64,000 bases of DNA from Bacteroidales bacterium. Lineage in GTDB: Bacteria > Bacteroidota > Bacteroidia > Bacteroidales > GCA-2748055. Under the pieces are notes generated by a model that was not told the DNA's origin, ran no database searches, and saw only the letters and a list, made by a program, of their open reading frames with translations. The stretch is from NCBI GenBank assembly GCA_029210725.1, contig JARGFM010000002.1, positions 1 to 64,000 on the forward strand, in the 5' to 3' direction. The first letter of the stretch is position 1, and every line of letters begins with the position of its first letter. Both the position numbers and the translations under genes were made by a program. Shown here in pieces: positions 5,669 through 33,969 of the stretch.

Positions 5669-8085
5669 ATGATACGCAGCTATTTTAAACACGCCTTCCG
5701 GAACCTCCTGAAGCAACGGGGGCGAACCCTGATCAATGTTTTCGGACTCTCATTCAGCATAGCCATCGTGATTATCATCTTTCTTTATGTGAGCGGAGAA
5801 GTGACTTACAACAATTTTCACAGGCAGGCCGATCGAATCTACCGTGTCTACAGCTCTATGCAGTCGGTGGAAGGAGAAACCTGGTATTCTTCTTATCAGC
5901 CAGCTGAATTTTCCGGAGCCTTGCAGGAAAGTGTCCCGGGAGTGGAATCCACGTGCCGGCTGAAATCCACCCCGGTTTTTATTGGTCTGGAAGAAGAGGT
6001 CTTCCAGGAGCATGTGGGCTTTGTGGATTCCACCTTTTTTCAAATATTCAGCTATGATTTTCTGGCTGGCGACGGAGAAACGCCTCTTCATATGATTAAG
6101 AGTGTCGTGCTTACCGAAAGTGTGGCCCGTAAAATTTTCCGCGACAGCCTGGTTCACCTGGATGATCTCATTGGCCGGACCGTGAATTTTCCGGAACGTC
6201 CCCCCTTTAATATCTATACAGTTACTGCCATTATTGCGGATCCGCCAAAAAATACTTCCTTTCGGTGGAGTGTGCTGGTCCCCTATGTAAATGCCCGGAT
6301 CTATCCCCGGAGCAATGACTGGGGAGGGGATACCTATACCTATGTGATGCTGGATGAAACCAACAACCTGAGTCAGCTGGAGTCTGCTTCCGCTGCCCTG
6401 GTGGAGCAGATTCACGGGGAAAACATCAACGAGGCTGTTAAGGAGGGCTTTTTGAGAGAGGGTGAATATAACTTCACTTTTCATTATATGCCTTTCCGGG
6501 ACTTTTACCTGGAGTCAGATTTTATGTGGGAATTTTATGAGATCCGGGGGAATAAGAAAGCCCTGTATATTTTATCCAGTATCGCCGTTCTGATCCTCTT
6601 GATTGCCTGCTTCAATTATGTCATGATTTCCATTGGGACCGCCATGAACCGCATTGGTGATTTCGGTCTGATGAATGTGGTGGGCGCCCAACGATGGCAG
6701 GTACTCTTCCAGTTTGTGGTGGAATCATTTGTCCTGACCCTGATTTCTCTTCTCCTGGGTATTATACTGGCAGAACAGCTTTTGCCTCTGTTCAATCATC
6801 TTGCGGAGGAAGATCTGCTTTTCTCCCTTTATTCCAGGGGAGGGAATTTTTTATTCCTCCTGATCATACTTCTGTTTATTGTCGTCAGCACCAGCACTTA
6901 TATCGGGATCTACCTGCTTCACAGGGCACAACCTTTGCTCCTGCTCCGAAGAGACATGCTGTCGGTTCGCCGCAATGGAGTGGCCCGGATTTCGGTGGTG
7001 CTGCAGTTTCTTATTGCGATTATCCTGCTGATATCCGGGGGGTGATCCTGAAGCAGCTGCATTACCTGTTGAACCGTGATGTGGGGTTTTCCAAAGAGAA
7101 TACAGCCGTGATCCACGTGGATTTTGAAATGCAGAAAATCCAGACTTTGAAGGAAAGAATCCTGGAATCACCGCATGTCCGGTCGGTGACCATGAGCGAT
7201 CGGAATTTCGACAGCGGGAGCTCTTCCCAGAGCGTGCATAATCCGAGCGGAGAAAGCGTTAGCATTCGCTTTCTGAGAGTCGATGAGGATTATTTGCAAA
7301 CCCTTCATCTGGAATTGATCGAGGGCAGGGATTTTTTTCGCAATGAAGGCGGGGACAGCATTCCCAAAGTGATCGTCAATGAGACCCTGGTCCGGCAGAT
7401 GGAGATTGAAGACCCGGTTGGAGAACGGCTAATTCTGGGTTCCGATGGTTTTGCCGTCGATATCATCGGGGTAATTCGTGATTTTCACTTCGATTCCATG
7501 CATGATGAAGTGCGGCCCCTGATGCTGCACACCTTTGATTACAATTCCATCTGGTTTCTCTTTGTTAAGGCCCGGGAAGGCCAGATGGCAGCGGCACTGG
7601 AACATTGTGAAAAGGTATGGAGGGAGGTGGTGCCGGAGTTCTCCAGGGATTACACCTTTATGACTGAAATCCTGGAGGGACAGTACAAGGATGAAAGCCG
7701 GTGGAGCCGGATTATTGCTCATGCCTCGGGAATTGCCATTCTGCTTTTCTGTCTGGGTTTGATGGGTATCAGCGGACTGCTGGTGGCCCGCCGCTTTAAG
7801 GAGGTGGGAATCCGTAAGGCCCACGGGGCCAGTATTTGGAAAATCATCGTCCTGCTAAACGGGGAACTTTTAAAATGGGTCTTGCTGGCTTATGTGATTG
7901 CCTGCCCGGTGGCCTGGTACATTGCGCAGCGCTGGATGCAGAATTTTGCTTACCGCACAGGGATCTCCTGGTGGATTTTTGCACTTGCCGGACTGTCGGC
8001 CCTGCTGATTTCCGTGCTGACCATTACCCTTCAGATCTACCGGGTGGCCCGGCAGAATCCGGTCAATGCCCTGCGATATGAATAA
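5669..8085 (+). pseudogene. MacB/FtsX-type ABC transporter permease, frameshifted
   Basis: The frame from ATG 5669 encodes the usual N-terminus of Bacteroidota macrolide-exporter-like permeases: MIRSYFKHAFRNLLKQRG, TM1, and a large MacB_PCD periplasmic domain. An FtsX core follows (GLMNVVGAQRWQVLFQFVVES). It stops at a TGA at 7043-7045 directly after a G6 run (7037-7042). From about 7042 the adjacent frame continues the same protein (VILKQLHYLLNRDVGF) through a second periplasmic domain and a second FtsX core (KEVGIRKAHGASIWKII), ending LRYE at 8085. One missing G, or two extra, accounts for the shift. Intact length would be about 805 residues. No ATPase, adaptor or outer-membrane partner is adjacent, so it is an orphan permease of unknown substrate. 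Confidence 0.88.
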
Positions 8086-8163
8086 TCTGGAATTTGGTTC
8101 GTCCTGCGGCAGGGGCAGTGCTGTTTTGAATCTGCTTTGAGCTGATCCCAAGCTGAATTTAGC

Positions 8164-8192
8164 TATCTTTGGAGTTCAGTAGTTCTGAACTC
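8164..8192 (+). promoter_or_regulatory. -7 element plus inverted repeat upstream of the RND-OMF operon
   Basis: TATCTTTG (8164-8171) matches the Bacteroidota -7 consensus. It is followed at once by GAGTTCAG (8172-8179) and its exact mirror CTGAACTC (8185-8192) around a 5-nt spacer. The repeat covers the predicted transcription start and ends 16 bp before the CusA-type ATG. This suits a repressor site or a 5' UTR hairpin. The -33 spacing is poor. Confidence 0.5.
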
Positions 8193-8208
8193 TAATTAAA
8201 GCCCTGGC

Positions 8209-11200
8209 ATGCTTAACCGAATCATCAACTTAAGCATTAAGAATAAACTGATCATACTTTTGCTGACGCTTTTTATGGCTGGCTTTGGTGTGTATTCCAT
8301 TTTTCAGATACCTCTTGGTGCAGTTCCCGATATTACCAACAATCAGGTACAGGTCATCACCACCTCCACCAATCTTTCCACCCAGGATGTGGAACAATTC
8401 ATCACATACCCGGTGGAGCTGGAAATGTCCAATCTTCCCGGAGTAGAAGAGATCAGGTCCATCTCTAAATTTGGCCTCTCGGTGGTTACCATCGTGTTTG
8501 AGGATAAGCTGGGGACCTACCTGCCCAGGCAACTCATTGCCGAGAAAATTAAAGCTGCCGCAGCCAATATCCCTGAGGGATTCGGAACCCCGGAGATGGG
8601 TCCCATCACTACCGGGCTGGGAGAGATTTACCAGTACATTTTGGATACCAAACCTGGTTACAAGGATAAATATTCCATCATGGAGCTTCGTACCATTCAG
8701 GATTGGGTGGTAAGAAGGCAACTTTCAGGAATTCTCGGAGTGGTGGAGGTGAATACCTGGGGTGGATTCCTGAAGCAGTATGAAGTGGCCGTGAATCCTG
8801 AAAGGATCAAAGGCCTGGGAATTTCTCTGCTTCAGGTTTTTGAGGCCATCGATAAAAATAACAGTGTAGCCGGTGGGGCATACATAGAAAAGCAGAACCA
8901 GAGTTTTTTTATCAGGGGTGATGGACTGGTTTCCTCCCTGGAGGATCTGGAAGAAATAGTGGTTTCCAACCAGGAAGGGATTCCAATTCTTATCAAGGAT
9001 ATTGCCACGGTGCGGTTTGGAAGTGCCAACCGCTTTGGTGCCATTACAGCCAATGGCGGGGGAGAGAAGGTGTTGGGTCAGATCATGATGCTCAAAGATG
9101 CCAATTCCAACAAGGTGATTGATGCTGTTAAGGAGCGGGTGGCGGAGGTTCAGGAGACACTTCCCGAGGGGATTTTTATCAATCCTATCGTGGAACGGAG
9201 TGAATTGATCGCTAAGACCTCCCTGACTGTCTTTGAAAACCTTTTGTTTGGCTGCCTGATTGTCTTTTTTATTGTGGTGCTGCTGCTGGGTAATTTACGT
9301 TCAGGTCTTGTCATAGCCTCTATCATTCCGCTTTCGCTCTTATTTACTATTTCGATGATGTATATTTTTGGAATCGATGCCAACCTGATGAGCCTGGGGG
9401 CGCTCGATTTTGGGATCATCATTGATGGAGCTGTCATCATTGTGGAATTTATTGCCATACGTCTGACTCTGAATCGCGATAAACTGGAGGGAACAGATCC
9501 GGAGGAGAAGCAATCCCTGATGGACCGGATTACCCACGATGGGGCCTCCAAGATGATGAATTCCGCCATTTTCGGGCAGCTGATTATTCTGATTGTCTTT
9601 ATACCCGTGCTTTCGCTGAGCGGGGTGGAGGGGAAGATGTTTCGTCCTATGGCACTCTCCTTCAGTTTTGCATTGCTGGGGGCCATGTTCTTTGGCCTGA
9701 CTTGGTTGCCGGTGGCCTCGGCGCTTTTTCTGCGTCCTGAAAAGAAGAAACAATTTGCCCTCACCCGTTTTATCATGAAACTTTTTTATCGTTCCTACGA
9801 GCCGGTTATTCGCTGGTCCTACGATCATAAGGGGGTCATTTTCGGACTCGCCATTGCGTCCCTGATCTTTACCGGAGTCATATTTTCCAGAATGGGTGGC
9901 GAATTTGTACCCACCCTGGATGAAGGCGATTTTGTGATACAGCCGGTGCTAAAAACCGGCACCTCTCTGTCAAAAACGGTAGAACTGACTACCCGGATGG
10001 AAAATATACTGATCGACAATTTTCCTGAAGTCGATCAGATTGTCTGCCGGATCGGGGCGGCAGAAGTGCCCACGGATCCCATGTCCATGGAGGAAATAGA
10101 TATGATCATCAAGCTAAATCCGAAAAAAACCTGGGTTACAGCTGAGAGCAAGGAGGAACTGGCCGACCGTTTTAAGGAAGCGCTAAGCATCATACCGGGT
10201 ATCGATTATGAGTTTACCCAGCCCATAGAAATGCGTTTTAATGAATTGATCACCGGTGTGCGTGCCGATCTGGCTATTAAGATTTTCGGAGAGGACCTGG
10301 ATATCCTGGCGGAAAAGGCCCAGGAGGTTAAGGCTTTGATCGATGAGGTACCCGGGGCGGTAGATATTATTATTGAAAAGACTGCCGGGCTGCCTCAGAT
10401 GAGTGTGAAATACAGACGCAACAGAGTGGCATATTATGGTCTTTCTATAGAAGAACTGAATCGTTATCTCAACATGGCCTTTGGAGGTGCCACCGCAGGA
10501 AACGTGTTTGAAGGGGAGAGGCGCTTTGACCTGGTGGTCCGGCTATTGCCCGAATTTCGTGAGGACATTGAGCATATCAGGAACCTTCCGGTTCAGATCC
10601 CCAATGGAAAGCAGGTCCCCCTTAGTGAGCTTGCGGAGATTAAGTATGCTACCGGGCCCGCCAAAATTTCCAGGGACGATACCCATCGCCGGGTGGTTGT
10701 GAGCGTCAATGTGCGCAACCGGGATCTGGAATCGGTGGTTACAGATATCGAAGCCATACTGTCCCGGCAGCTGGAATTACCGTCCGGGTATTCGGTGGAT
10801 TATGGAGGGCAATTCGAAAATCTTAGAAACGCAAGTCAAAGACTAAAAGTGGCGGTGCCGATCGCCCTGCTTCTAATCTTTATTTTTCTTCATTTTGCCT
10901 TCAGTTCCTTTAAGGAGGCAGCCTTGATTTTTACGGCGGTCCCCCTTTCCATTGTGGGAGGTGTTTTTCTGCTCTGGATCAGGGGCATGCCTTTCAGTAT
11001 TTCGGCGGGTATAGGATTCATCGCCCTGTTTGGTGTTGCCGTGTTGAATGGAATTGTATTGATTGAGCATCTGAAAGATCTGAAAAAGCAAGGGATTACC
11101 AATATGCGCGAGAGGGTTCTGAAAGGAACCAGTGAGCGGCTACGGCCGGTTTTGTTAACGGCCGGTGCAGCTGCATTGGGATTTCTGCCCATGGCTATCT

Positions 11201-26075: not shown

Positions 26076-26152
26076 AATAATTTGTATCTTAGCTACCGTA
26101 ATTTCCCTGTTATCTCCTGTGAGAAATGGTAAAACCTCTTAAACAGTATACG

Positions 26153-27070
26153 ATGAAAAAATCCTGCTTACTCCTGGTTATATGGCTTCTAATATTGACT
26201 GGATGTAATTCAAAAACCGACAGGACCGCGGCCATCGGGGAGGAAGGGTTCAGCTTTGCCTTTCTGACCGATATTCACCTTCAGCCGGAGCGGGGTGCTG
26301 AGACTGGTTTTCAATGGGCTATCAAAGAGGTGAATAAAAGAAAACCGGATTTTGTGCTGACCGGGGGTGATATGGTGATGGATGCTCTGAATCAGACCTA
26401 TACCAGGGCAGATTCTCTGTATAAGCTTTATCAGGACTTATCCGGAAAATTTGATATGCCGGTTTACAATACCATTGGTAATCACGAAGTCTACGGCTGG
26501 CAGAGAGAGGAGGAGAATTTGGAGCAAAATCCTGAATATGGCAAACAGATGTATGAAAAGCGTTTGGGTCCCCGATACTATTCTTTCGGACACAAAGGGT
26601 GGCATTTCATCATTCTGGATGGTATCCACCAGGCAGAACAGGGGGGATATAAGGGAAAAATTGAGGAGGAACAAATGTTGTGGATAGCCAATGAGTTAAA
26701 GCAGATTGATCAGAGAACTCCCATTGTCATCAGCGTGCACATTCCCTTTATTACCTCTGCATCGCAGTTAATGAGGGGCTCCATGGCCGCCAACAGTGAA
26801 GGGCTCGTGATAAGCAATTCCAGGGAAGTGCTGAACCTTTTTTTGGAACATAATCTGAAACTGGTCCTTCAGGGGCATCTCCATTTTCTGGAGGATATCT
26901 ATGTCCAGAACCAGGTCCATTTTATCACCGGGGGTGCGGTCAGCGGCAAATGGTGGAACAATGAACCGGAGACGAAGCCCGAGGAGGGTTTTATCATGGT
27001 TAAAGTGTTGGGGGATGATCTGACCTGGGAGTACGTGGATTTTGGATGGACCCCACCGGATGATAATTAA
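26153..27070 (+). CDS. Calcineurin-like metallophosphoesterase lipoprotein
   Basis: 305 residues from ATG 26153 (a non-signal extension to 26126 is less likely). The lipobox is LILTGC. The metallophosphoesterase blocks are in order: FLTDIHL (D-x-H), LTGGDMVMDAL (GGD), TIGNHEVYG (GNHE), VISVHIPF (H) and VLQGHLHFLEDIY (GHxH). These bind two metals and hydrolyse phosphomonoesters or diesters; being a lipoprotein it acts in the periplasm or at the surface. A TATCTTAG resembling a -7 element lies at 26085-26092. The B12 riboswitch follows its stop by about 40 bp. Confidence 0.85.
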   Translation: MKKSCLLLVIWLLILTGCNSKTDRTAAIGEEGFSFAFLTDIHLQPERGAETGFQWAIKEVNKRKPDFVLTGGDMVMDALNQTYTRADSLYKLYQDLSGKFDMPVYNTIGNHEVYGWQREEENLEQNPEYGKQMYEKRLGPRYYSFGHKGWHFIILDGIHQAEQGGYKGKIEEEQMLWIANELKQIDQRTPIVISVHIPFITSASQLMRGSMAANSEGLVISNSREVLNLFLEHNLKLVLQGHLHFLEDIYVQNQVHFITGGAVSGKWWNNEPETKPEEGFIMVKVLGDDLTWEYVDFGWTPPDDN

Positions 27071-27109
27071 TTCTTTTCCCGGATAGTTTTATTTCGTATT
27101 TTTATCCCA

Positions 27110-27330
27110 TCATTGGTTTCCATATACCGGCCTGCCGGTGGAATCAAAAGGGAATACCGTTAGAATCGGTAACAGTTCCCGCTGCTGTGAATCTGTATGT
27201 GGATCAGCGATTGTTTATCCACATAACAAAGCTTCTGAAGGAAGACCACTGTTCTGATAATCCCGGTCGGGATTAGGACGGGAAGGTTTCAGAAGCTCGG
27301 ACAAGTCAGAAGACCTGCCAGTGATAAACC
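27110..27330 (+). promoter_or_regulatory. Cobalamin (B12) riboswitch
   Basis: The conserved cobalamin aptamer blocks appear in order: an initial TTGGT-type segment; GGTGGAATCAAAAGGGAA (27137-27154); TCGGTAACAGTTCCCGCTGC (27166-27185, containing the B12-box-like CAGTTCCCGC); a long variable arm closing on GGGATTAGGACGGGAAGG; and AGTCAGAAGACCTGCC (27304-27319). It lies in the leader of a four-gene operon for B12 capture. AdoCbl or a related corrinoid would switch expression off. Confidence 0.93.
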
Positions 27331-27405
27331 AGCTTTTGCAGCCCGCGGTGAACGGGAAGCTGATCTGACATATCGCCCAGGTCTCGACTACCTCACTATC
27401 GCCCG

Positions 27406-27438
27406 CTGCGACTTTAAATGTTTTAATTTAAATCGTAG
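27406..27438 (+). promoter_or_regulatory. Start-proximal hairpin, candidate riboswitch expression platform
   Basis: CTGCGA-C-TTTAAAT (27406-27419) pairs with ATTTAAA-TCGTAG (27426-27438) around the loop GTTTTA, giving about 13 bp with one bulged C and one G-U pair. It ends 4 nt before the ATG at 27443, so it would bury the ribosome-loading region. A second nested hairpin (CAGCTT/AAGCTG with CCCG/CGGG inside, 27330-27362) lies between it and the aptamer. No U-run is present, favouring translational over transcriptional control. Confidence 0.5.
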
Positions 27439-27442
27439 TCTG

Positions 27443-28663
27443 ATGAAATTTTTTTACTCAACACTGCTTACACTCTGTCTGCTGGCACTGCCGGCATATG
27501 CTCAGAGTTCCCTGGCTCCCAGGTATGGATATGAGATAGCTACCTGGTTTCCTGATTATCCCAATATCGGGGCTTTTGATTTTTCAGATACTCTTTTCTT
27601 TCTGAATGATGGGGACACCATTCATATGTTAGGGGTCCGGAGCGGAACCGAACTGAAAAAGTATGGGAAACCGGCGGATTATTCGGCCAACAATTACGCT
27701 ACATTTCTCACTCTTTCCCCTGATGGGAACACCATCTGGGCAGGCTATACCAGCGATGGGGCCGAGGATGATCGCATTTACAGCATCGATGTGACAAGTG
27801 GCCGGTGGGAATTGCAGGCTACCTTTCCCGGGAACATGGACCTGATCTTCTGGAACGACAGCATTCTGGTATCCGGTTTGAACAGTCCTTCATGGGAGGC
27901 TCCTTCAGCCATATTTATCCTGGATACTACCGGGCTAAATCATCACCGCAGGATCATTGAGCCGGGAGGATATTCGGCTGGAATGGCAATCGACCAGCAG
28001 AACAATCTCTATTATGGAACCTCTTATGCCGTGAATCCCAATGCCTTGTATCGTTGGGATAACTCCATGATTCAGCTGGTGGCAGAGTTTCCGGACAGGC
28101 CTGTTCTGCAAGTATCACATGGTGAAAAACTCAGCGACCTGCCTGGCGGTGTCTATGATTGTGAGGTGGATGCCGGGGGGAATGTACTCTTTAATATGAA
28201 CCTCTATGGAGGGATTATGTCTGTGTGCAAATGGAACGGCAATAAGGGGGATGGACACAATTTGGACACTCTGGCCACCGCATCCGGGGAGTATGACTGG
28301 CTGGGAAGCCTGAAATCAAAAGGGGATATAAGCCAGGTAGAACCGGGGAACATGGTGGTGACCTACTCTTTCGGCCAGCCTCTTGCTATACTGACGCATA
28401 TAAATACAGTCGGGGTGAAGATGGAGCAGGCACCAGAGTTTCTTGCCTTTCCAAATCCTACCAGGGGCATTTTTACTATCCGGTCGGCGACCAGAGAAAT
28501 AATGGAGGTGAAGGTATATACCATTCAGGGTTCCCTGGTGTATGCAAAAAGTGATTTTGTTTCGGGAACGGAGATCGATCTATCCGGGCAGTCTGCAGGT
28601 TCGTTTATTCTTCAGGTGACAGACAGTCAGGGAATTACAAGTAAAATAATTCAAAAATTATAA
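27443..28663 (+). CDS. Secreted beta-propeller-like protein with T9SS sorting domain, B12 operon
   Basis: 406 residues. Signal peptide to AYAQS (about residue 21). The body (about 25-320) has repeated blade-like units with Asp/Trp-rich turns (FLTLSPDGNTIWAGYTSDG, MAIDQQNNLYYGTSY, CEVDAGGNVLFNMNLYGG), suggesting a beta-propeller. The last 75 residues are a T9SS type-A sorting domain (FLAFPNPTRGIFTI ... GSFILQVTDSQGITSKIIQKL). The protein should be secreted or attached to the cell surface. As first gene after the riboswitch, with BtuB and a BtuG-like protein 3' of it, it is probably a cobalamin-capturing or -delivering surface protein. That role is inferred from context only. Confidence 0.82.
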   Translation: MKFFYSTLLTLCLLALPAYAQSSLAPRYGYEIATWFPDYPNIGAFDFSDTLFFLNDGDTIHMLGVRSGTELKKYGKPADYSANNYATFLTLSPDGNTIWAGYTSDGAEDDRIYSIDVTSGRWELQATFPGNMDLIFWNDSILVSGLNSPSWEAPSAIFILDTTGLNHHRRIIEPGGYSAGMAIDQQNNLYYGTSYAVNPNALYRWDNSMIQLVAEFPDRPVLQVSHGEKLSDLPGGVYDCEVDAGGNVLFNMNLYGGIMSVCKWNGNKGDGHNLDTLATASGEYDWLGSLKSKGDISQVEPGNMVVTYSFGQPLAILTHINTVGVKMEQAPEFLAFPNPTRGIFTIRSATREIMEVKVYTIQGSLVYAKSDFVSGTEIDLSGQSAGSFILQVTDSQGITSKIIQKL

Positions 28664-28666
28664 AGA

Positions 28667-30082
28667 TTGATCCGGAGTTATCTTATATCCTTCCTGGTTG
28701 TCCTGAGTCTTTTGGATTCAGAAGCTCAATATATATCACAGGTGATGGAATATACTCCAGCTCCCGGACAACTCATTAATCTTGATCCCTGGGGAACGCC
28801 TGGCGGGGCCCGCTCTCTGGAAGGAGGGATCCTCGGATCAGTTTGCCTGGGAGCTTTTGGTGGTTATGTCGTCTTCCGTTTTGAAGAGCCCGTGGAAAAT
28901 GATCCCCTGAATCCTTATGGAGTTGATTTCACCATCTTCGGGAATCCAATGCCCGAATGGTCGGAACCCGGGGTGGTCTGGGTGATGAAGGATGAAAATG
29001 AGAACCTTGAGGCAGACGACACCTGGTATGAGCTGGCCGGAAGTGATTACTGGTTTTCCTCCACGCGAAGGGATTTCAGGGTGACCTATTCCAATCCGGG
29101 AGGGGAGTTTGCTGCGGATGTCCCCTGGCAGGATCAGTCGGGGAGTTCCGGGGTCATCCGGGCCAACAGTTTGCACACTCAGCCTTATTACCCTGTGCAT
29201 GACTCATTTCCAGCCATTGATCCGGAAAGTTACAGCCTGGAAGGCACCCTGTTACAGGGCCAGGTATTTGAACACTTCATCGGGTATAAGTCGATGCCCA
29301 GGGCTTTTGGATATGCCGATAATCAGTTTCGTGGCGCAGAGCCCTTTAGCCTTCCTGATAATCCTTATACCCGGGAGCTTGAAAACTCAGGAGGAGATGC
29401 CTTTGATATAGGGTGGGCGGTGGATACGAATGGAGACTATGTAGAAATTGACCGGATTCATTTCATCAAGGTTCAGAATGGCATCCTGGCCGACGGGGGA
29501 AGACTGGGCGAACTCTCTACGGAGTTGACCGGCGCTTTGGATGTACCTCCTGATCCTTCATTAACAGGGGAAAGCAGGATGGTGGTCATCCGGGATCTGC
29601 CTCCCCTGCTTGAGGTGGCGGAGTATCAGCTGGAAGTATTTATTTTTCAGGACGGGCGAAAAATATCAGAAGGTCCTGTTCAATGGACCACCAGTAACTC
29701 CGGAGCCACAGTGAACAAGTATCACCTCCTCCGGGTCACTGAAGAGGGTCCGCTTACTATTACCGCCGCCTTACCGGGCAACCCGGAGATAGACGCTAGC
29801 GTATCCACCACGGTTCAGTTCGGGCAGACAGCTGCATTTGGACATTCAAGTTTGGATCCCGGGCCTGTTCTTTACCCGAACCCGGTTTCAGATTACTTCA
29901 GGATAAAGGGCTGCACTGATGCCTCCCTGCTGCTCTGTGATGCTTCAGGCAAAGTTTTGATCAGGGTGGATCATTATCAGGAGAACAATGCACTGGATAT
30001 TCGTGCATACCCCGGCGGAATCTATCTGCTCCGGATCGCACGGGACTCTTCCGTCCGGTGGTTTAAACTGATTAAAGAGTAG
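28667..30082 (+). CDS. Secreted T9SS-sorted protein of B12 operon, function unknown
   Basis: 471 residues from a TTG start 3 nt after the previous stop. No ATG precedes the signal peptide (MIRSYLISFLVVLSLLDSEAQ), and the first internal ATG would remove it, so TTG is favoured. The body (about 22-250) contains LDPWGTPGGARSLEGGILGSVCLGAFGGYVVFRFEEPVEND, a pattern I know from Bacteroidota surface proteins near B12 receptors but cannot name. An Ig-like or PKD-like region (about 290-385) follows, then a C-terminal T9SS domain (VLYPNPVSDYFRIKG ... GGIYLLRIARDSSVRWFKLIKE). It has tight operon spacing on both sides (3 nt and 1 nt). The function as a corrinoid-handling protein is inferred. Confidence 0.8.
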   Translation: MIRSYLISFLVVLSLLDSEAQYISQVMEYTPAPGQLINLDPWGTPGGARSLEGGILGSVCLGAFGGYVVFRFEEPVENDPLNPYGVDFTIFGNPMPEWSEPGVVWVMKDENENLEADDTWYELAGSDYWFSSTRRDFRVTYSNPGGEFAADVPWQDQSGSSGVIRANSLHTQPYYPVHDSFPAIDPESYSLEGTLLQGQVFEHFIGYKSMPRAFGYADNQFRGAEPFSLPDNPYTRELENSGGDAFDIGWAVDTNGDYVEIDRIHFIKVQNGILADGGRLGELSTELTGALDVPPDPSLTGESRMVVIRDLPPLLEVAEYQLEVFIFQDGRKISEGPVQWTTSNSGATVNKYHLLRVTEEGPLTITAALPGNPEIDASVSTTVQFGQTAAFGHSSLDPGPVLYPNPVSDYFRIKGCTDASLLLCDASGKVLIRVDHYQENNALDIRAYPGGIYLLRIARDSSVRWFKLIKE

Positions 30083-30083
30083 G

Positions 30084-32081
30084 ATGCGATTCAGAACTCA
30101 CATATTCCTGCTTCTGGGCTTCAGCTCTTTTACAGCAATGGGGCAGGGGATTACTGATACGGTTTTTCATATCCATGGGGTGAGTATCACAGCAGAACAG
30201 ATCTTTATAAAAGAGCAGGCAGGAATGAAACAGACCGAAGTGGATAGCTCGGTAATTCAGGATAAGTTGAGTCTTTCCCTGTCTGAACTTCTCTCGGAAA
30301 ATACTTCGGTTTTCATCAAAAATCATGGGCGTGGTGCACTGGCTACTGCCTCTTTGCGGGGCACTTCTGCTTCCCATACACAGGTGAGCTGGAACGGGAT
30401 CAATATCAATAGTCCCATGGCGGGTATGGTGGATTTTTCCTTGATACCGGTTTATATTATTGATGAGCTTCATCTGAAGCATGGCTCAGCTTCACTGGCC
30501 GACCGGAGCGGGGGCATCGGGGGCTCTATCAATATCAACAACCGGGCCAGATGGAACGAAACAAAATCGATCGGCTATCTGCAGGCCATCGGGAGCTACA
30601 GGACTTTTGATGAATTTCTGCAGCTTGGTACCGGGAATAAGAAGATCCAGAGCAAAACCCGTATTTACCATAACTATTCCAGAAACAATTATACGTATAT
30701 CAATCGGGGGGTCGCTACCATTGACCCCTCTACAGGAGCGATTACCAACCCTGTTGATACCAACGATCATGCGGCCTATAAACGTTATGGCATACTACAG
30801 GAGCTCTACTTCAGGCCGGGAAGCAATCAGCTTGCTTCATTGAAATACTGGGGACAGTATGCCGATCGGACCATTCCCAGACCTACCAGTTACGAGGGGC
30901 CCGACAACTCCAATTTGAACAGGCAGGTCGACAGAGATCATCGCGTGGTGGCCGACTGGAAATATTATGGTGATTTTGGCAGGCTGATGCTTCGTTCAGG
31001 TTTTGCAGATAAAGGTCTGGATTATAATCAGATGAACCAGGTTCCCGGATTGGGCCTGATTCCGGCCATCTGGTCGGAAAGCAAACAACAGAGCCTGTAT
31101 AATTCATTTTCCTACTCCGGAGAATCCGGGGAACAACTATCCTGGGAGGGCCAAATAGATCTGAATCATCACAGAGTGGGGTCGGCCGATTCGGTTTCAG
31201 GTGCCGGCTATAATGGCAGCCGGAACGAATTATCTACCCGGATAGCGATTCGAAAGAGTTTTAAGGAAAGGCTTAACCTGAACCTGATGCTACGGCAGGA
31301 GTGGGTCGACGGACGGCGTTTGCCGCTTATTCCCTTTTTGGGAATGGATATAAGGCTGATAAAGGGGGTGGATCTTCTTTTGAAAGGAAACATTGCACGC
31401 AACTATCACCTGCCTGCTCTGAATGACCTTTTCTGGCAACCCGGAGGGAATCCCGGACTGAGACCCGAAGAGGGCTTTACAATGGAAGGAGGGGTGGTGT
31501 ACCAGCAGGATCTGTCGGGTCAGTTATTGAAAACGGAGCTCACGTTTTACCGTTCCGATATAGCGAACTGGATCATCTGGATTCCTTCCTACCGCGGCTA
31601 CTGGGAGCCGCAGAATATCCTCCGTGTTTTGTCAAAAGGAATGGAGTGCAACCTGCAGCTCCAGGGAAACTTTTCAGAATTCCGTTATAAACTCGTGGCC
31701 ACTTACGGGTATACCCGTGCTGTAAACCTTGGAGATCCGCTGGTTTGGAGCGACGGATCATACGGCAAACAACTGGCTTATATTCCCCTTCATTCAGGAA
31801 ATGTGATGGTCCAGATGGGATGGGGCCATTTCTTTTTCACTTACCAGTATAATGCCTATAGTGAAAGATATACCACCTCCAGCAATGATGTTAGCCGTCG
31901 CGATCGCCTTTACCCCTATTTTATGAATGATCTCTCAGCCGGGACCCTGTTCGACCTGAAACAAATGGATCTATCCCTGGAGCTGAAGTTGAATAATCTG
32001 TTCAATGAATCTTACCATACTATTTTATACCGGCCTATGCCGGGAAGAAATTTTCAGCTTGTTATAAAGATACAATTCTGA
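30084..32081 (+). CDS. btuB: TonB-dependent receptor, BtuB-like (cobalamin uptake)
   Basis: 665 residues. Signal peptide MRFRTHIFLLLGFSSFTAMGQG. The plug domain (about 50-170) shows SLSELLSENTSVFIKNHGRGALATASLRGTSASHTQVSWNGI and IDELHLKHGSASLADRSGGIGGSI, the usual plug signatures. The remainder is a 22-strand barrel with a terminal aromatic (NFQLVIKIQF). It lacks the carboxypeptidase-like N-terminal extension of SusC proteins, so it is of the BtuB/siderophore type. Control by a cobalamin riboswitch and a BtuG-like partner immediately 3' indicate vitamin B12 as the substrate. It begins 1 nt after the preceding stop. Confidence 0.88.
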   Translation: MRFRTHIFLLLGFSSFTAMGQGITDTVFHIHGVSITAEQIFIKEQAGMKQTEVDSSVIQDKLSLSLSELLSENTSVFIKNHGRGALATASLRGTSASHTQVSWNGININSPMAGMVDFSLIPVYIIDELHLKHGSASLADRSGGIGGSININNRARWNETKSIGYLQAIGSYRTFDEFLQLGTGNKKIQSKTRIYHNYSRNNYTYINRGVATIDPSTGAITNPVDTNDHAAYKRYGILQELYFRPGSNQLASLKYWGQYADRTIPRPTSYEGPDNSNLNRQVDRDHRVVADWKYYGDFGRLMLRSGFADKGLDYNQMNQVPGLGLIPAIWSESKQQSLYNSFSYSGESGEQLSWEGQIDLNHHRVGSADSVSGAGYNGSRNELSTRIAIRKSFKERLNLNLMLRQEWVDGRRLPLIPFLGMDIRLIKGVDLLLKGNIARNYHLPALNDLFWQPGGNPGLRPEEGFTMEGGVVYQQDLSGQLLKTELTFYRSDIANWIIWIPSYRGYWEPQNILRVLSKGMECNLQLQGNFSEFRYKLVATYGYTRAVNLGDPLVWSDGSYGKQLAYIPLHSGNVMVQMGWGHFFFTYQYNAYSERYTTSSNDVSRRDRLYPYFMNDLSAGTLFDLKQMDLSLELKLNNLFNESYHTILYRPMPGRNFQLVIKIQF

Positions 32082-32085
32082 TGTC

Positions 32086-33180
32086 ATGAAGCTCCGAATA
32101 TGGATCCCCATAAGTTTTTTCTTGCTTTTTTCCCTTTCGGGATGTATGGAGGATGATCTGCTCTGGAACTTTGAGCGGCCTGTCTACGATGTTTCCCCGA
32201 ATGGGATTTTTGTGGTCAATGAGGGAAATTTTATGTACGGGAACGCTTCCCTGAGCTATTATGATCCGGAGACCAGGGAGATACTGAATGATGTATTTTT
32301 CAATACCAATGCCTTACCCCTGGGTGATGTGGCTCAATCCATGACCATTCACGACAGCCTGGGCTATGTCGTGGTCAATAACAGCGGCAGAATCTATGTG
32401 TTCCATACCTCAAGCTTTGAGCTAAAAGGAAAGATTACCGGACTCACCTCGCCCAGGTATATGCATTTCATCAGCGATACCAAGGCCTATGTAAGTGATC
32501 TGTATGCCCGTTCCATCGCGGTGGTAAATCCTGCCACCCTGGAGGTAGTCGGGTCGATTCCCGTTAGCAACCGCAACACTGAGTTTTATCAGCACGCTAC
32601 AGAACAGATGTTGCAATTCGACAGCTTTGTTTATACCAATTGCTGGAGTTACGACAACCAGGTCCTGGTGATCGATGCGGAGCTGGACCGTGTGGTTGAT
32701 TCCATCGAAGTACTCAAGCAACCCAACTCCATGGTCCTGGACCGCTATCATACTCTATGGGTCCTGTGTGACGGAGGTTCGGAAGGCAGTCCATACGGAA
32801 GTGAGGCCCCCGGGCTTGTAAAGATAGGTGCCGGATCCAGAGAGGCACAGATTGTTCACAGATTCTCCCGGGGGGAAATACCCAGGGAACTCAGAATTAA
32901 TGGAAGCGGGGATACGCTCTATTTCCTGAACGGGGATGTCTACAGCTATGCCGTGCATGGTTCTTCCGATCCCGGTTTGTTGATTGAAAATCCCTATGAT
33001 GGCACCCTGTTTAATGGCTATTACGGGCTGGAAGTGGACCCGGTAACATCGGAAGTTTATGTGGCTGATGCATTAGACTTTGTGCAGCGGGGAATGATAT
33101 ACCGGTTTTCTCCAGATGGGATCCCTGTTGATACATTTCAGGCAGGAATTGCACCCGGATCTTTCTGTTTTAAATTCTGA
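32086..33180 (+). CDS. btuG: BtuG-like surface beta-propeller lipoprotein (DUF5074-type)
   Basis: 364 residues. Lipobox LFSLSGC with Cys20, followed by MEDDL. Acidic residues just after the lipid Cys are the Bacteroidota surface-export signal. The remainder forms a seven-bladed YncE-like propeller with repeated units (FVVNEGNFMYGNASLSYYD, SPRYMHFISDTKAYVSDLYARSIAVVNPATLEVVGSI, GLEVDPVTSEVYVADALDF). This is the architecture of BtuG, the high-affinity B12-binding lipoprotein capping BtuB in Bacteroides. It begins 4 nt after the btuB stop and is the last gene of the riboswitch operon. Homology to BtuG is judged by fold pattern and position, not by a database search. Confidence 0.8.
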   Translation: MKLRIWIPISFFLLFSLSGCMEDDLLWNFERPVYDVSPNGIFVVNEGNFMYGNASLSYYDPETREILNDVFFNTNALPLGDVAQSMTIHDSLGYVVVNNSGRIYVFHTSSFELKGKITGLTSPRYMHFISDTKAYVSDLYARSIAVVNPATLEVVGSIPVSNRNTEFYQHATEQMLQFDSFVYTNCWSYDNQVLVIDAELDRVVDSIEVLKQPNSMVLDRYHTLWVLCDGGSEGSPYGSEAPGLVKIGAGSREAQIVHRFSRGEIPRELRINGSGDTLYFLNGDVYSYAVHGSSDPGLLIENPYDGTLFNGYYGLEVDPVTSEVYVADALDFVQRGMIYRFSPDGIPVDTFQAGIAPGSFCFKF

Positions 33181-33219: not shown

Positions 33220-33969
33220 ATGCCAATGACCATTCAACAATACCAGAAAAAATGTTCCCGGGAGTATCTGAATAATATCAAGTTCCCCCAGGAGAACACT
33301 TACCTGTACGGGAATCCGGTTCAGACCGTGGTTCCCATTGAAACGAACATAGGAAGAATTATGGTGATCGGTCCTCAGCCGGCCGCCAAAGTCTTTTTTG
33401 TGAATGATATTCCCGATGTACCTCTTTATGATGCCACAGCTCCTTTTTCCATCGAACCCTATTACGATGGGAACCGGGTTCGCAGTTCTTATACCGGGCA
33501 GGAGCTAAGCGAAGTGATCCTGGAAACCCTGGAGATTGAAAGAGAACACTGCTGGCTTACCACCCTGGTCAAGGTTTTTTTGTTTGATGAGGATCATGTG
33601 AAAAAATACCGCCGGCTGGGCAAGGAGATCAAAGCCAATAAATCTCAATACAACGAGTATGCCCTTAAAAGCATGCCATGGATAAGAGATGAGATTGAGA
33701 TTGCCAATCCCAAAGCCATTATCCTGCTGGGCCCTGAGGTGATCTCCAGCCTGCTCCTGATTTCTGAGAAAGAAGCCATGGATCTGATAAGCGGTGAGGT
33801 GGTGGAAAAGAAGATTATCTGGAAGAACTCCAATTTTATCTGTCTGCCTCCTCCCGGGGTGATTATGGACCGCTCGGCGCGGAACCCCTGGTCCAGGAAA
33901 TTTGCACTTCAAATCGGTCCGAAAGCGGCCGGGGAAATCCGCAGACTGGAGGCCATGCCCTCCATCTGA
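33220..33969 (+). CDS. Uracil-DNA-glycosylase-like superfamily protein
   Basis: 249 residues, no signal peptide. Pattern resembles the family 4/5 UDG-like fold: an N-terminal strand IGRIMVIGPQPAAKVFFVNDIPD in the motif A position, a central helix with EREHCWLTTLVKVFLFDEDH, a strand AIILLGPEVISSLL, and a C-terminal loop ICLPPPGVIMDRSARNPW in the position of the usual HPSP loop. The classical motif A (GExPG) and the catalytic-loop histidine are not obvious, so activity on uracil is uncertain. It is a monocistronic gene between the B12 operon and the convergent tld genes. Confidence 0.55.
   Translation: MPMTIQQYQKKCSREYLNNIKFPQENTYLYGNPVQTVVPIETNIGRIMVIGPQPAAKVFFVNDIPDVPLYDATAPFSIEPYYDGNRVRSSYTGQELSEVILETLEIEREHCWLTTLVKVFLFDEDHVKKYRRLGKEIKANKSQYNEYALKSMPWIRDEIEIANPKAIILLGPEVISSLLLISEKEAMDLISGEVVEKKIIWKNSNFICLPPPGVIMDRSARNPWSRKFALQIGPKAAGEIRRLEAMPSI

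Follow-up and report, generated by a model that had tools for sequence, protein, structure and literature searches.

Why should a cobalamin (B12) operon place two genes for proteins with type IX secretion system (T9SS) tails ahead of those for the corrinoid transporter BtuB and its lipoprotein lid BtuG? The question is raised by a stretch of 64,000 nucleotides (nt) from a Bacteroidales bacterium of the GTDB lineage GCA-2748055 (assembly GCA_029210725.1, contig JARGFM010000002.1, positions 1 to 64,000 of the forward strand; hereafter the window), in which a cobalamin riboswitch is followed by an operon of this kind. The capture of B12 in Bacteroidota has been worked out on the lipoproteins of gut Bacteroides; in many relatives of the present locus, BtuH-, DUF4465- and BtuG-type domains carry T9SS tails. 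The reading favored here, with a probability of roughly 0.7, is that the two proteins are T9SS-delivered and most likely surface-held corrinoid catchers, which feed a gate made of the lipoprotein BtuG and of BtuB. It builds on the observed domains and tails, the riboswitch, the recurrence of the operon in relatives and the T9SS genes of the source genome. The operon is laid out as follows:

27097-27336, + strand: cobalamin riboswitch aptamer (RF00174), matched over the full model (positions 1-189 of 189) with 84.4 bits; gathering score 31.5
27443-28663, + strand: protein 1 (P0001), 406 amino acids (aa), with a signal peptide, a predicted six-bladed beta-propeller (about 25-321) and a type A T9SS tail (336-403)
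28667-30082, + strand: protein 2 (P0002), 471 aa, with a signal peptide, a BtuH B12-binding domain (23-289), a beta-rich stretch (about 303-386) and a type A T9SS tail (402-471)
30084-32081, + strand: protein 3, 665 aa, BtuB-like TonB-dependent corrinoid transporter (Plug 5.8e-12; TIGR01779 1.4e-22)
32086-33180, + strand: protein 4, 364 aa, BtuG lipoprotein (DUF5074; solved BtuG chains), lid of BtuB

The four open reading frames (ORFs) are separated by gaps of 3, 1 and 4 nt. A first-pass annotation, made from the letters alone, had already described a riboswitch followed by two type A T9SS-tailed proteins, BtuB and BtuG with gaps of 1-4 nt, a layout that was borne out by RF00174, by Pfam and NCBIfam, and by the ORF coordinates; it had let the locus begin at 27,110, i.e., 13 nt inside the riboswitch. 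The riboswitch is the only Rfam match at gathering level in the window and the only copy found in the genome (3.8 Mb, 98.6% complete), and the leader 3′ of the aptamer folds unremarkably (z = -1.6). The start codon of protein 2 is TTG, which aligns with the starts of its relatives. For protein 3, the best NCBIfam model is TonB-B12 (TIGR01779), with 80 bits at 1.4e-22, far under the equivalog cut-off of 599.7. Protein 4 matches DUF5074 at 4.6e-19 and the solved BtuG2 and BtuG3 chains at about 1e-103, shows the lipobox LSGC by eye, and adjoins BtuB directly on its 3′ side; as a DUF5074 propeller lipoprotein in this position it agrees with the described BtuG (Wexler et al. 2018, PMC6143338; Abellon-Ruiz et al. 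2023, PMC10404256), from which no difference was noticed.

Both tails match the models of type A T9SS cargo above the curated cut-offs, that of protein 1 with 6.3e-10 (PF18962) and 3.1e-10 (TIGR04183), and that of protein 2 with 3.5e-8 and 1.1e-6, respectively. Chance matches were rejected as an explanation because the cut-offs are passed in Pfam as well as in NCBIfam. The source genome encodes SprA, has adjacent genes for PorU (1263 bits) and PorV (395 bits), and holds 38 PF18962 matches above cut-off. Proteins 1 and 2 thus combine the sequence marks of type A cargo, i.e., a signal peptide (assigned by eye in both, with a simple script as a second check on protein 2), a TIGR04183/PF18962 tail and a T9SS-bearing genome. 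Cargo of type A is gathered by PorV; in Porphyromonas gingivalis, PorU cleaves it and it becomes attached to anionic lipopolysaccharide (PMC9143113, PMC12618676). T9SS cargo can be delivered to the medium or anchored (PMC10202324).

The BtuH domain of protein 2 and its delivery routes

The first-pass annotation had taken the domain of protein 2 to be undescribed, and Pfam leads a reader to the same view, since none of its models matches this domain in protein 2 or in any of the 49 T9SS-tailed homologues treated below. Residues 23-289, however, match BtuH2 (PDB 7biz_A) with an E-value of 5.2e-32 and residues 21-289 match the H-domain of BtuG1 (8blw_B) with 1e-26, so that a new domain family was rejected. 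BtuH2 binds B12 through its BtuH domain (PMC8941943), and in the BtuG1 fusion each half, the H-domain included, binds cobalamin separately (PMC12751083).

To judge from its sequence, protein 2 carries the BtuH domain under a different delivery tag and is not a BtuH lipoprotein. Like BtuH1 and BtuH2 of Bacteroides thetaiotaomicron (Putnam et al. 2022, PMC8941943), it has the domain (5e-32), is encoded with btuB in a riboswitch-linked operon, and keeps four of the six polar B12 contacts of BtuH2 (Q333, N399, H476 and Y510; numbering counted from the printed alignment and from PMC8941943). Unlike them, it has an ordinary signal peptide and a type A T9SS tail, and no lipobox by pattern or by eye. 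BtuH2 places PKD domains at the N-terminus and the binding domain at the C-terminus, whereas in protein 2 the binding domain is N-terminal and is followed by the beta-rich stretch (modelled with low to fair confidence) and the tail. The contrast drawn earlier between protein 2 and the BtuH lipoproteins is thereby reduced to the tag, and the suggestion of a new capture mechanism survives in one half: predicted T9SS cargo in a cobalamin-regulated BtuB-BtuG operon stands, whereas the capture chemistry is probably a known one, since the domain is BtuH and the delivery tag alone differs. The T9SS route appears to be new for this known binding domain.

In the order, 92 of 393 genomes contain matches to protein 2; in a class-wide draw there were 8 among 355, two of them outside the order (the genome search scores few candidates per genome). 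The order survey and seven of eight loci on named contigs (L numbers denote loci; L005 was dropped, lying on the same contig as L054) gave 120 BtuH ORFs, with a T9SS tail in 49, a lipobox in 53 and neither mark in 19 (three of these being cut at an end); the survey was centred on matches to a T9SS-tailed query, and 49 versus 53 is not a natural frequency. The single ORF with both marks, L061, was counted in the tail class, leaving 52 in the lipoprotein class. The lipobox was assigned by a simple pattern and the tail class by our own hidden Markov model (HMM), seeded with tails of the same set and then checked with the curated models, which found PF18962 in 44/49 and TIGR04183 in 46/49 tail-class ORFs, and in none of the other 71 (TIGR04183 at E 1e-3 in NCBIfam, PF18962 at E 1e-5 in Pfam).

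SprA is present in 371 of the 393 genomes of the order (the 22 without it include G359 and G368, inferred from gaps in the match list) and is thus near-universal, so that having a T9SS is not enough to settle which route is taken. Among the surveyed genomes, tail-class BtuH was seen in 43 of the 84 with SprA and in 0 of the 8 without it (Fisher p 0.006, for related and hence not independent genomes). Three genomes hold both tail-class and lipoprotein-class BtuH. In a careful maximum-likelihood tree of 118 of the 120 BtuH domains (unrooted; L128 and L122_7908 were left out as cut or short), seven changes between the routes were counted (bootstrap 6-8; shuffled mean about 33), one of which comes from L155, a long branch of unsure placement. 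At least four changes are forced by well supported branches (five in the quick tree). The delivery route of BtuH is thus passed on in blocks, with several exchanges along the way.

Some BtuH proteins of the set are unusual in their own right. In L131, L153, L155 and L061, BtuH and DUF4465 are fused, in either order, within one T9SS-tailed protein with two presumed B12 sites. BtuH-domain proteins of more than 1400 aa are encoded at L139:4945-9177 and L140:7222-11532, in loci with a cobalamin riboswitch; the L140 protein is truncated at its end and matches Ig- and cadherin-like models weakly.

The search for RF00174 covered 80 of the 91 further genomes that match protein 2, among them every genome with a tail-class ORF; its listing was confined to the best matches, and loci absent from it were scanned a second time. 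A same-strand cobalamin riboswitch lies within 6.5 kb upstream of 44 of the 49 tail-class ORFs (three of the 44 touch an over-called ORF start); the other five are L004, with a partial riboswitch, L006, L019 and L088, near contig ends, and L137. A BtuB-like ORF is found on the same strand within 5 kb of 42/49 tail-class and 47/52 lipoprotein-class ORFs, and the order T9SS-tailed catcher, T9SS-tailed BtuH, BtuB, BtuG recurs, whole or in parts, in relatives.

Directly 3′ of BtuB, none of the 33 DUF5074 proteins in tail-class loci has a T9SS tail (22 pass the lipobox pattern and several of the other 11 show a lipobox by eye), and neither does any of the 36 in the remaining loci. Elsewhere in the loci, the tail is found on 38/63 DUF4465 and 19/126 DUF5074 proteins. 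This fits a lid that stays lipid-anchored on BtuB and helpers that can be delivered by either route, in agreement with the lid complex formed by BtuB and BtuG (PMC10404256). Very large DUF5074 proteins with T9SS tails were seen in L068 and L069 (both 1429 aa) and in L086 (1442 aa); L068 and L086 also hold a BtuG of ordinary size with a lipobox.

The propeller of protein 1

The undescribed module of the operon is the propeller of protein 1, which the first-pass annotation had rightly called propeller-like. Its model (predicted local distance difference test, pLDDT, 78) shows six blades by strand count over residues 25-321 or so, and the structural matches listed, with Z of about 19-23, are lactonase-, NHL- and dehydrogenase-type and designed propellers, which we take to be mostly six-bladed. 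No Pfam propeller family matches the protein, and the shared fold shows no function. The best Foldseek E-value belonged to the T9SS component PorZ, which superposes poorly (root-mean-square deviation 15.9) and was not used.

Protein 1 is not a BtuG by sequence. It has no DUF5074 at an E-value of 1 or better in Pfam, and no BtuG chain is among the matches listed at E 10 for a profile of five of its relatives. BtuG is also absent from the 50 rows listed in Foldseek and VIA-align searches with the model, which show generic propellers; this was given no weight. When the propeller profile was set against DUF5074 in hhalign, the probability of 54, over 102 columns, was too low to be used. If the strand count is right, protein 1 would also differ in blade number from BtuG2, which is seven-bladed (PMC6143338).

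Thirteen distinct members of the family were collected, all of which have a T9SS tail by our own HMM and none a lipobox. In seven, the propeller is followed by DUF4465 and the tail (L004, L010, L054, L063, L056, L008 and L059), in two by DUF5074 and the tail (L072, L160) and in one by BtuH and the tail (L134); protein 1, L064 and L070 have propeller and tail without a further domain. A domain of a known B12-binding type (DUF4465, DUF5074/BtuG or BtuH) is therefore fused to the propeller in 10/13 members. DUF4465 binds B12 in the members tested (PMC13398666), and many relatives carry propeller-DUF4465-T9SS or DUF4465-T9SS proteins at the position of protein 1, which links this position to BtuJ (Juodeikis et al. 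2025, PMC12751083; Clarke et al. 2026, PMC13398666). The BtuJ of B. thetaiotaomicron, in contrast, are predicted lipoproteins (PMC12751083), and DUF4465 has no match in protein 1 or anywhere in the source genome.

Eleven of the thirteen propeller genes begin 99-629 nt downstream of a cobalamin riboswitch (taking the inner start for L054), and L004 has a partial, sub-threshold one at a contig edge. In the order, the search with protein 1 matched 12 of 393 genomes, in ten over all or part of the propeller and in two over the tail only; among the 355 genomes drawn evenly from the class, the propeller profile matched the source genome alone. A same-strand upstream riboswitch is present in nine of the ten order genomes whose match covers the propeller. 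Together with the 44/49 for T9SS-tailed BtuH, this places both families mostly inside cobalamin-regulated loci, where the first-pass annotation had named the opposite as a reason to abandon its idea. Protein 1 may bind corrinoid itself, or it may serve as a spacer or docking part. Its propeller stands for an as yet undescribed family whose functional context is strong.

Proposed corrinoid capture, alternatives and wider context

How the operon might work can be sketched by analogy with characterised relatives, from which binding, secretion, anchoring and hand-over are borrowed. When corrinoid is scarce, the riboswitch would permit expression of the operon. Proteins 1 and 2 would pass the inner membrane by Sec and be translocated by SprA with the PorV shuttle, the sortase PorU would remove their C-terminal tails, and both would most likely be attached to polysaccharide at the cell surface. 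Corrinoid captured by the BtuH domain of protein 2 would be passed to BtuG, the lipoprotein lid of BtuB, and imported by BtuB. Protein 1 would represent the propeller module of a T9SS-delivered family of corrinoid catchers, here without its DUF4465 (BtuJ-type) domain.

Several observations weigh against this picture. In protein 2, K208 and R279 stand in place of the polar contacts W511 and W577 of BtuH2, and M in place of F401; position 577 is W in 33/49 tail-class and 32/52 lipoprotein-class ORFs, which puts protein 2 in the minority. Y510, which it keeps, is Y in just 8/49 and 15/52, respectively, and K or V predominates in column 511; H476, also kept, is H in 38/49 and 48/52. The alignment is poor at columns 510-511, which vary widely in all classes, and little weight was placed on them. 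The AlphaFold model of protein 2 has a mean pLDDT of 46, and below 50 over residues 13-302. Protein 1 has no recognised ligand site. Among the relatives, the T9SS-tailed BtuH locus L137 is a true exception in which no cobalamin riboswitch was found, and none was found in the 16.8 kb stretch of L160, whose propeller-DUF5074-T9SS protein is encoded at 6159-8897.

The substitutions could mean that corrinoid binding has been lost in protein 2, or that its ligand is another tetrapyrrole or a corrinoid precursor, its place in the operon being inherited. A precedent exists in B. thetaiotaomicron BtuK2, which does not bind cobalamin in spite of its similarity to the binding protein BtuK1 (PMC12751083). 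We consider this quite improbable: Q333 and N399, which contact ribose and phosphate, are conserved almost throughout both classes of BtuH ORFs (Q333 in 49/49 tail-class and 51/52 lipoprotein-class ORFs, N399 in 48/49 and 51/52), cobalamin is bound by the H-domain of BtuG1 alone (PMC12751083), and the gene keeps its position after cobalamin riboswitches across many genomes. A somewhat better case, though still an unlikely one, can be made for protein 1 as an enzyme or adhesin of the lactonase- or NHL-like kind that has nothing to do with corrinoids and stands in the operon by coincidence. Its fold serves many functions, as its structural matches show, and no Pfam propeller family claims it; a coincidence would nevertheless have to account for the T9SS tail in every member, the fusions to DUF4465, DUF5074 or BtuH in 10/13, and the riboswitch before eleven genes, with the partial one before a twelfth.

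The fate of the two proteins after export is a separate matter, as they could be released, soluble or borne on vesicles, and scavenge corrinoids in the manner of siderophores. Some T9SS cargo does go to the medium (PMC10202324), and the BtuJ lipoproteins of B. thetaiotaomicron act on extracellular vesicles in a model that has been likened to siderophores (PMC12751083). In P. gingivalis, however, type A tails lead to covalent anchoring by PorU (PMC9143113), and a released carrier leaves its own retrieval unexplained. Because the tails are of type A and both PorU and PorV are encoded in the source genome, the evidence favours proteins that are held at the surface, and release appears to be the less likely, though a serious, alternative.

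If proteins 1 and 2 are indeed surface-held catchers, a wider scheme can be put forward tentatively, as one that is possible but on the doubtful side: T9SS-bearing Bacteroidales would build a second, covalently anchored corrinoid-binding layer around BtuB-BtuG, in which the propeller of protein 1 would be the new corrinoid-handling or docking module; binding domains would repeatedly switch layers, and the BtuG lid would stay a lipoprotein because it is seated on BtuB. The T9SS is mainly known for proteases, adhesins and polysaccharide enzymes, and, if the main reading is true, would also serve micronutrient capture. The choice of anchor would become a testable variable, i.e., why BtuG is lipid-anchored and its helpers not necessarily so. 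Several of the relatives with T9SS-tailed B12 domains belong to uncultured lineages.

Among the literature matches listed, and to judge by titles, term counts and the openings of abstracts, no paper was found that connects T9SS export with BtuH, BtuJ or BtuG or presents corrinoid-binding proteins as T9SS cargo, in a search that had most subscription journals and all preprints outside its scope. The words “T9SS” and “secretion” are absent from the BtuH paper (PMC8941943), and “T9SS”, “secretion” and “sorting” from the DUF4465 paper (PMC13398666). BtuB3G3 is named just as a substrate of the beta-barrel assembly machinery (BAM; PMC12578637), and a cobalamin riboswitch before a TonB-dependent transporter of Flavobacterium psychrophilum is not tied to the T9SS (PMC9723704).

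The operon is flanked by two further genes on the same strand. Immediately 5′ of the riboswitch, at 26126-27070 (+), lies a calcineurin-like phosphoesterase (PF00149) with a lipobox by eye, homologues of which occur in the L005, L010 and L135 loci, at the same place in the close relatives L005 and L010. At 33220-33969 (+), 39 nt 3′ of BtuG, a protein of the uracil-DNA-glycosylase superfamily is encoded (PF03167, 5.5e-6), with homologues at the same place in the close relatives L004, L005, L006 and L010.

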